Positions 15,616-57,390 of a DNA stretch of 64,000 nucleotides are shown here, piece by piece. Origin of the DNA: a bacterium. GTDB lineage: Bacteria > Pseudomonadota > Alphaproteobacteria > Acetobacterales > Acetobacteraceae. The notes under the pieces are model-generated. The model worked only from the letters and a program-made list of their open reading frames with translations, made no database searches and was not told the origin of the DNA. Position 1 is the first letter of the stretch; each line of letters opens with the position of its first letter. Location: the NCBI GenBank assembly GCA_026224825.1, contig JAMFRO010000002.1, positions 1 to 64,000 of the forward strand, in the 5' to 3' direction. The translations under genes were made by a program, and so were the position numbers.

Positions 15616-15811
15616 GGAAAAAGGCCAGGGCTCTGCCCTGGACCCGCCAAGGGCCATAGGCCCTTGGATCCCATAACTTAAGAATTAAAGAGGGCCTGCC
15701 ACCTAGCTGTTTCAACAGTATGGAGGCAGGCCCTCTTTAATTCTTAAAAGCTAATGGGGGTCTGGGGCCTCAGGCCCCAGCGGGTCCAGGGCAGAGCCCT
15801 GGCCTTTTGCC
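15616..15811. repeat. REPIN-like palindromic element, copy 1
   Basis: About 196 bp. The outer left half (AAAAAGGCCAGGGCTCTG onward) is mirrored by the right half ending CAGAGCCCTGGCCTTTT. Each half also contains its own small hairpin: GGGCC/GGCCC on the left and GGGGCCTGAGGCCCC-type on the right. Between them a core hairpin pairs AATTAAAGAGGGCCTGCC with GGCAGGCCCTCTTTAATT around a loop containing CTGTTTCAACAG. It lies between the convergent GST and LLM genes and likely terminates both. Confidence 0.8.
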
Positions 15812-50664: not shown

Positions 50665-50865
50665 GGAAAAAGGCAAGGGGCTCTGCCCCTTGACCCCGCT
50701 GGGGCCTGAGGCCCCAGACCCCCGCTACTTAAGACTTAAAAAAGAGGCCTGCCTCCTCGCTGTTTCAACAGTTAGGTGGCAGGCCTCTTTTTTAAGTCTT
50801 CAACTAATGGGGTCTGGGCCTCAGGCCCAGTGGGGGTCGAGGGGGCAAAGCCCCTCGCCTTTTTA
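50665..50865. repeat. REPIN-like palindromic element, copy 3
   Basis: About 200 bp. Outer halves GGCAAGGGGCTCTGCCCCTT and its mirror, inner small hairpin GGGGCCTGAGGCCCC. Core hairpin ACTTAAAAAAGAGGCCTGCC pairs with GGCAGGCCTCTTTTTTAAGT around a loop containing CTGTTTCAACAG, as in copy 1. It ends 3-4 nt before the start codon of the K+ channel gene. Confidence 0.8.
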
Positions 50866-54464: not shown

Positions 54465-54673
54465 CCGGTCTGAGGCCGGGACTGGGAATAAGGAAAAAGG
54501 CCAGGGGCTCCGCCCCTGGACCCCGCTGGGGCCGTCGTGCGAAGCACGCCTTCGGCGTGACGGCCCCAGACCCCCTAGACTTTAAGGATATGAAAGACGG
54601 GCTATGCGCCCCCACGGACCGTGAACATTGTTCAAGGTCCGTGGGGGCGCATAGCCCGTCTTTCATATCCTTT
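54465..54673. repeat. REPIN-like element, copy 4 (left part, before insertion)
   Basis: From 54492: AAAAAGGCCAGGGGCTCCG, then a longer small hairpin (GGGGCCGTCGTGC...GACGGCCCC). The core hairpin pairs GGATATGAAAGACGGGCTAT with ATAGCCCGTCTTTCATATCC around a second stem CGGACC/GGTCCG. The mirrored outer half is not here but at 55231-55290, on the other side of the inserted element. Confidence 0.8.
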
Positions 54674-55230
54674 TAAACTAAGGCACCTATATACTTGACT
54701 AAGCAAAGTGCCTTTTGTCTGTGCCAAGCCAACTTACTGCTTTGTTGGCGTTGCGTTGACGGCATTGAATCATTCACCATAGAGTTTGGTCGTGCCAATA
54801 TATCAACCCCTCGACATAGGTGTGCCGCTCAAAGCGAGCTTGAGTGATCTGGTCAATTTTCAGTGGACCATTAACGGGGTGAGCGCGGATTTCATTCTCC
54901 CAGATGATGATGCACATCTATTACGGGTAGCGTTTGACCGGCAATGCATCGTGCGTCTTTTGGACGAAATGCCGCTCAGCACGGAGAATGATACTGGACC
55001 GAATGAAGGACTGATCTCAGAGAATTTTGCCTACAGCGTTGAAGGTGCCGCATTTTCGCAAGCGCAATCTGAGGCATGGAAATTGACCGTCAAACCTGCA
55101 ACTCATTATCGCTTCATAACCGGGTGGACCTGTTTGGACATATTATCGCAGGCTGCCCCGTCTTTTACGATAATTGCTCGTCCCCCTTAAAATTCAACCA
55201 CTTAGTTAAGTATATAGTTGCCTAAACTAA
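54674..55230. mobile_element. 541-bp non-autonomous element with 23-bp TIRs and 8-bp target duplication
   Basis: The element is 54682-55222. Left TIR (54682-54704, starts GGCACCTATATACTTG) and right TIR (55200-55222, reverse complement starts GGCAACTATATACTTA) match at 20 of 23 positions. TAAACTAA flanks it at 54674-54681 and 55223-55230. TIRs starting GGC with an 8-bp AT-rich duplication fit the IS1595 family, in which passenger genes are known. No transposase is present; the only gene is a 134-aa unknown. Removing element plus one TAAACTAA restores an intact REPIN. Confidence 0.8.
54786..55190 (+). CDS. Unknown passenger protein (134 aa) of the inserted element
   Basis: A 134-residue frame whose start is TTG 54786 or GTG 54792; there is no ATG in the first part and the ribosome site is weak. 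The protein is mixed alpha/beta without membrane segments (VNFQWTINGVSADFILPDDD, LRVAFDRQCIVRLLDEMPL, HYRFITGWTCLDILSQ). Hydrophobic positions alternate as in a folded protein. No family recognised. It is the only sizeable frame between the TIRs; base composition is less GC-rich than that of neighbouring genes, as expected for transferred DNA. Confidence 0.55.
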   Translation: MVVPIYQPLDIGVPLKASLSDLVNFQWTINGVSADFILPDDDAHLLRVAFDRQCIVRLLDEMPLSTENDTGPNEGLISENFAYSVEGAAFSQAQSEAWKLTVKPATHYRFITGWTCLDILSQAAPSFTIIARPP

Positions 55231-55290
55231 TGGGGTCTGGGCCTCAGGCCCAGTGGGGGTCGAGGGGGCGAAGCCCCTCGCCTTTTCCTT
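55231..55290. repeat. REPIN-like element, copy 4 (right part, after insertion)
   Basis: TGGGGTCTGGGCCTCAGGCC...CCTCGCCTTTTCC, the mirrored outer half belonging to 54492-54673. It is almost identical to the right half of copy 3 (near 50806-50865). Confidence 0.8.
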
Positions 55291-57276: not shown

Positions 57277-57390
57277 AAGCAGCTTTTTGAAAAAAGCTAC
57301 ACCAAAAACTTTTGCTCCCGGGCCATCGGCGCCGGCCCATTCCCGCCTACCACCGTCATGCCGGCGCAGGCCGGCATCCACGACTTGACC
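57277..57390. repeat. Palindromes between purC and purS
   Basis: Two structures. AGCAGCTTTTTGAAAAAAGCT (near 57279-57299) is a terminator-like fold without a long U-tract. ATGCCGGCGCAGGCCGGCAT (near 57358-57377) is a REP-type palindrome, followed closely by the purS ribosome site. Confidence 0.55.

Follow-up and report, generated by a model that had tools for sequence, protein, structure and literature searches.

The window analysed here is a stretch of 64,000 nucleotides from the genome of an Acidocella bacterium, and at positions 54682-55222 of its plus strand it holds a 541-bp element with a GC content of 0.48, against 0.64 in the flanks. The element is bordered by copies of the octamer TAAACTAA, identical at 54674-54681 and 55223-55230, and ends in 22-bp terminal inverted repeats, the left one being GGCACCTATATACTTGACTAAG (54682-54703, plus strand) and the right one GGCAACTATATACTTAACTAAG as read on the minus strand (55201-55222). 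The left end and the reverse complement of the right end are identical at 20 of 22 positions; an initial annotation of this DNA, which had described the same segment and flanking octamers, gave 20 of 23, the figure obtained when the next base is counted. Between the ends lies a passenger gene of 134 amino acids on the plus strand (54786-55190), with a TTG start and an alternative GTG start 6 nt further in, at 54792. No transposase was detected inside the element, as had been stated, and in particular none of the DDE_Tnp_IS1595 type; thus the element, which shows the A+T-rich 8-bp duplication and GG-starting ends of the IS1595 family, is not a full member of it, and only its ends are of IS1595 type. 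Inverted repeats matching those of an insertion sequence, a target-site duplication, a passenger gene and the lack of a transposase are hallmarks of a mobile insertion cassette (MIC), and all of these were found in the window element.

When the window was scanned with the end pattern at up to 3 mismatches, only these two ends matched, with no further match elsewhere in the 64 kb and none in 100 shuffles. A generic end test, requiring identical 8-bp flanks and an inverted match of at least 11 of 16 positions no more than 1500 bp from a gene, returned exactly the same pair around the window gene. With two other known elements as controls, this test found C52 and missed G034 C447, the duplication of which contains a mismatch; from 20 mononucleotide-shuffled versions of a Rhizobium locus it returned no match.

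The element splits a palindromic unit, a putative REPIN if that name is taken strictly as a REP pair linked to a RAYT transposase. The left part of the unit occupies 54487-54681, with a long hairpin at 54573-54683, and the right part 55231-55286 (both on the plus strand). Joined with a single TAAACTAA, the flanks form an uninterrupted unit that aligns with four others of this genome from which the element is absent (C27, C52, C98 and C102), as well as with the one near 50665 of the window; window positions 50802-50863 and 55225-55286 are 98% identical, and the junction at C27, where the element is absent, reads CTTTTAAAAACTAATGGGG. These paralogous copies bear out the earlier claim that removing the element with one TAAACTAA restores a palindromic element, and the duplications, the ends and the reconstructed empty site agree on a transposon-like element with an exact footprint, as had been proposed. 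Among the three window copies cited as intact, that at 50665 is supported by alignment and those at 15616 and 39649, both palindromic, by eye only. In related strains, where an empty site was expected to be looked for, no orthologous empty allele was found at the window locus: G026 (C64) has a shorter palindrome there, related by eye, that lacks the long inner hairpin as well as the element, and both palindrome and element are missing from G023 (C33), so that the empty site is shown by the paralogous copies. Across the copies of the unit (window 15616, 39649, 50665 and 54487-55286; C27, C52, C98 and C102) the outer parts are conserved; the inner hairpin varies in sequence between copies and is still palindromic by eye, as if its arms change together.

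The initial annotation had proposed a search of the genome and its relatives for the two ends. With up to 3 mismatches allowed, the degenerate pattern of the cassette ends (ends of the form GGYAAYWATATACTTGRCTMAG) matched 14 places in the genome of the window, all falling into seven pairs, with no match of the reversed pattern used as a control; more pairs were found in relatives. The seven elements (C63, which is that of the window, C52, C3, C59, C23, C33 and C26) each have an exact 8-bp duplication and distinct contents, their main frames being of 134 aa (C63), 149 aa (C52), 77 and 109 aa (C3), 196 aa (C59), 238 aa (C23), 144 aa (C33) and 106 aa (C26). None of the seven encodes a transposase, and their GC content of 0.45-0.52 compares with 0.59-0.64 in the flanks.

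Within the genus, 50 end matches were distributed over 15 of 38 genomes (control, 1); no partner was assigned to 11 of these, some of which lie near contig ends. Twenty paired elements from ten genus genomes, 18 of them without transposase, were complemented with three from the genus or family to give a sample of 23, of which 21 lack a transposase; the transposase-carrying ones in the genus are G011 C31 and G037 C33. At up to 2 mismatches, matches were present in 9 of 397 genomes of the family. Moreover, a scan of genome contigs yielded 50 stretches matching the end pattern, which by title belong to Acidocella, other Acetobacteraceae, Acidobacteriota, Planctomycetota, Chloroflexi, Verrucomicrobia and others. 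Paired elements, 25 in total, came from 24 of these stretches and none from the other 26; a duplication with at most 1 mismatch was required for 23 of them, two more (L092 and L082) were added by hand, and two pairs spanning more than one cassette of a G026 array were excluded. Sixteen of the 25 encode an Acidocella-like transposase (one being G037 C33 again), one has a transposase fragment (L083), and eight have none, six of which are genus elements already counted. The affiliation to IS1595 suggested at the outset is upheld by PF12762 transposases encoded in elements whose 22-bp ends are identical or similar, and such elements, found in Acidocella and in several phyla, are the likely source of the cassette ends.

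Some of the transposase-carrying elements have features of their own. Five autonomous ones (L085, L086, L100, L113 and L115) have, beside the IS1595-type transposase, an additional short frame whose product shows an F..L...L.SV..SEI-like motif, in a strict form made by eye, and is possibly a small accessory protein. In two IMG/VR contigs a 3289-bp autonomous element (L203, 6077-9365; L207, 1471-4759) encodes a transposase and two further long frames; the octamers of the two copies are reverse-complementary, so they are perhaps the same insertion, and the presence of this element in viral contigs makes it a possible vehicle between hosts.

The conserved part of the cassettes is short. Compared across 20 elements, the 40 ends show conservation at positions 1-22, a weaker one at position 23, where 39 have T or C, and none further inward. 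Within an element the ends agree at 19.25 of 22 positions on average, against 17.9 between different elements, and none of 10000 permutations reached the within-element value; one element scores only 6 because of a one-base shift. The interiors were unrelated by BLAST, save for three related pairs plus the two full transposases, which are 62% identical. In one of these pairs, the 109-aa cargo of C3, which lacks a transposase, is 47% identical to the 110-aa cargo of G011 C31, which has one. Another, G012 C112 and G034 C310, shows 92.6% DNA identity and, because the similarity continues into one flank (94.7%), counts as an orthologous insertion. By alignment, a cassette type encoding about 122 aa occurs with unrelated flanks in A. 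aromatica (G003 C14) and in another genus (G213 C109). The 21 cassettes thus hold at least 16 unrelated cargoes (G116 C123 was absent from the BLAST comparison). No transposase remnant was detected in any of the 21, the best tblastn match having an E value of 0.75; in 19 the longest frame is longer than in 95% of dinucleotide shuffles, the exceptions being G026 C35a and G116 C123. Pfam matches above cut-off were obtained for two of 23 cargo proteins, namely a YecR-like lipoprotein (C26) and a DUF7689 protein in the full element of G037. In a viral contig (IMGVR_UViG_3300042090_001278; L206, 5272-5315), two 22-bp ends stand head to head as a 44-bp element with no interior and AAGAGGAA on each side; no further cargo-free element of 44 bp was found in the 397 family genomes, nor in viral contigs other than this one.

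The duplications point to a preferred landing site. They are readable in 18 of the 21 cassettes, a set which includes G003 C14 (with a single mismatch) and G026 C35b (with the end moved by one base), and no clean duplication was seen at G012 C112, G031 C259 and G034 C447. In 13 of the 18 the duplicated octamer is AAAACTTT, read on one strand or the other; since three of these cases lie in one array, the count by site is 11 of 16. In the window this octamer occurs twice per 128000 strand-positions. A terminator-like arrangement, in which the hairpin GCTTTTTGAAAAAAGC has AAAACTTT no more than 25 nt behind it, was found at 31 places in the genome (control, 0), of which four are occupied by cassettes (C3, C23, C33 and C52); a fifth cassette, C59, is located at a variant hairpin, and that of C26 at the A-tract of a further hairpin resembling a terminator. 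The five AAAACTTT duplications of this genome all adjoin terminator-like hairpins. The window itself has an unoccupied repeat of the type used by other cassettes of the genome at 57282-57312 (plus strand), and the window element adjoins the long palindrome described above, its own duplication not being AAAACTTT. A perfect stem of at least 8 within 70 nt was present at 9 of 16 sites, against 40 of 1000 random window positions, a control that includes genic DNA; seven sites failed this strict test, among them the window site (best stem 7), and no perfect stem within 70 nt was seen at G003 C16, G017 and G023. At G026 C35, three cassettes of 307, 645 and 808 bp stand in tandem with just one AAAACTTT between neighbours. 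As an insertion duplicates its octamer, the target is reusable and cassettes can stack.

The 134-aa frame is the longest within the window element, and its length was reached by 7 of 300 dinucleotide shuffles. Searches of the protein in Pfam, in PADLOC and by PDB profiles returned nothing, and against NCBIfam there was only a sub-threshold GldI match (E 0.12), with none above cut-off. A single-sequence fold was poor (mean pLDDT 45), and the profile searches recommended earlier gave no family. Plasmid-borne homologues were present in Methylorubrum and Rhizobium (14 records), 52-60% identical (53.5-57.6% by tblastn), and in Sinorhizobium and R. sullae (three records), 29-32% identical by tblastn; none were found in viral contigs. 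Given these homologues, the frame is to be regarded as a real gene, as judged from sequence comparison. In six of these plasmid regions a search extending over 4 kb and tolerating up to 4 mismatches detected no cassette-like ends, and the generic end test gave one marginal match (L136) with an unrelated octamer. A profile of the cargo matched three times across the 397 family genomes, at its own locus and in G048 and G168, and the latter two loci also lack such ends; the cargo of cassette G034 C447 is about 27% identical by BLAST. The absence of ends around the plasmid homologues indicates that the gene belongs to an accessory pool which also travels otherwise. The initial annotation would have been abandoned if the ends occurred nowhere else and the gene had an ortholog without them; the ends do occur elsewhere, and the cargo is indeed also found at loci lacking them.

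PF12762 genes were detected in 20 of 38 genus genomes, with a single one in the genome of the window (C70). It belongs to a 2344-bp transposon (L046, 810-3153) with AAGTAGTG duplications, passenger frames of 223 and 145 aa without Pfam match, and ends that partly agree with those of the cassettes: the right end matches them for 18 bp and then differs, and over the same 18 bp the left end departs from them at 3 positions. Its transposase is 34-35% identical to those associated with matching ends, and the C70 transposon is unlikely to be the helper of the cassettes of its genome. The closest matching ends with a transposase are those of G011 C31, in a relative, no counterpart of which was found in the genome of the window. 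Four of the eight genus genomes bearing transposase-less cassettes gave no PF12762 match (G003, G023, G026 and G034, two of them less than 90% complete), thus cassettes often reside in genomes without a visible helper.

Taken together, we consider it very probable that the window segment is a MIC with IS1595-type ends, moved in trans by a PF12762 transposase and belonging to an octamer-targeting set in Acidocella and neighbouring genera. According to this model, an IS1595-type transposase supplied in trans would pair the two 22-bp ends and insert them into an A/T-rich octamer, AAAACTTT or similar, often beside terminator-like hairpins, producing the 8-bp duplication; the duplicated octamer could be used again, which would stack cassettes. 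The cassettes of Acidocella and neighbouring genera would have their ends in common and carry small genes that are mostly unrelated. As for how genes come to lie between the ends, C3 and G011 C31 would be consistent with a transposon that carried a passenger gene and lost its transposase. We infer both the movement in trans and which transposase may serve the window cassette; the cargo may also confer a benefit. Seven cassettes with near-identical 22-bp ends and differing genes imply that these bacteria seem to shuffle single genes with borrowed transposon ends. We would only tentatively extend this to an integrase-free cassette system in which 22-bp ends suffice, an octamer beside terminators accepts cassettes and is regenerated by every insertion, arrays can grow, the transposase is external and often absent, and the 44-bp element is an empty cassette.

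The cassettes could instead be decayed IS1595 transposons, independent derivatives from which an internal deletion removed the transposase and which no longer move. Autonomous elements do bear differing passenger genes, the related cargoes of C3 and G011 C31 occur in forms with and without transposase, half of the cassette-bearing genus genomes have no PF12762 gene, and outside the genus there is an element with a transposase fragment (L083) as well as a 1266-bp element without any (L114). Against this, not one of 21 elements retains a transposase remnant, the deletions would need to end just inside the 22-bp end every time, and the exact duplications, together with one cassette type found in two genera with unrelated flanks, argue for movement in the short form; hence we find this explanation somewhat unlikely. 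A deletion origin as such is compatible with a MIC; the conflict concerns only whether the products still move. The deleted transposon that the initial annotation had offered as an alternative is thus possible as the ultimate origin, but interiors are not shared and no remnants were found; ends in common without common interiors make the window element a member of a cassette set rather than a one-off deletion.

It is highly improbable that the element is MITE-like with an incidental open frame. Its small size, its lack of a transposase and the seven shuffles that reached the frame length would agree with this; the cargo, however, has homologues at 52-60% in Methylorubrum and Rhizobium and one of about 27% in another cassette, and frames beyond 95% of shuffles are the rule (19 of 21). 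Nor are the interiors non-coding and common to copies, as MITEs would have them, being mostly unrelated and gene-bearing. That the cassettes are vehicles for orphan immunity or defence genes, the cargo protecting against toxins or phages, is suggested by plasmid neighbourhoods: a homologue of the C59 cargo lies directly 3' of a 'putative toxin' gene in Aeromicrobium, and one of the C52 cargo adjoins an SMI1/KNR4 family gene in Streptomyces. Yet no annotated toxin stands beside the C59 homologue of Rhizobium or the C52 homologue of another Streptomyces, nor, by annotation or eye, next to the 134-aa homologues in five regions (two more being unannotated); PADLOC gave only two weak matches for 10 cargoes (E 0.0098 and 0.082), and one cargo is the YecR-like lipoprotein of C26. 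We therefore regard this role as unlikely.

The preferred reading, a MIC with IS1595-type ends, can be placed among known systems. Integron cassettes, which are defined by an attC site and the IntI integrase, are single, mostly unknown genes, interchangeable and set in tandem at a short site. The cassettes described here are likewise interchangeable single genes that can stand in tandem at a short site; their ends are explained by transposon repeats with 8-bp duplications, and only one array was seen. Known MICs (MIC231 of Bacillus cereus, mic-qnrD and mic-qnrS2) consist of insertion sequence inverted repeats around a passenger gene without transposase, and mobilization in trans was shown for MIC231 (PMC3913671); IS231 is a member of the IS4 family (PMC2266710). 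These examples contradict the premise of the initial annotation that non-autonomous elements normally carry no gene (PMC3913671), so that its element, footprint and IS1595 type stand and the abnormality that it saw in a gene inside such an element does not. The window cassette resembles MICs in its inverted repeats, passenger gene, target duplication and lack of transposase, and differs from the known ones in that its ends, 22 bp long, are of IS1595 type. Ends of this kind enclose at least 16 cargoes that are unrelated to one another, one octamer is favoured as the target, and in one case cassettes are arrayed in tandem. IS1595 'transporter ISs' with passenger genes have been described (Siguier et al. 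2009, as cited in PMC3129680), and 8-bp duplications and GG-starting ends are documented for an IS1595 element (PMC12561309); such passenger-carrying elements with a PF12762 transposase have these features in common with the window element, which in contrast has no transposase. Like MITEs and TIMEs, the latter derived from Tn3 (PMC4133298), it is short and non-autonomous with terminal repeats and duplications, but cassette interiors hold genes that mostly differ from copy to copy. Finally, a preference for repeated extragenic palindromes relates it to ISPsy8, ISPpu9 and ISRm22, which target REP palindromes; these are named as Insertion Sequences, and the abstract gives neither their families nor any mention of passenger cassettes (PMC1525189). 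As far as these sources describe them, MICs, passenger-carrying IS1595 elements and REP-targeting insertion sequences are already known; what is new is a set of IS1595-type MICs with minimal common ends that favour one landing site and in one instance form an array. Judged by titles and the beginnings of abstracts, which do not establish absence from print, the literature searched showed no IS1595-type MICs in Acidocella and none that form arrays.

One genome therefore carries seven cassettes, single-gene except for one with two genes, which have only their transposon ends in common. They provide a context for small unknown genes that family libraries mostly miss, and raise the possibility that, in addition to integrons, bacteria could have another way of trading single genes as exchangeable modules.
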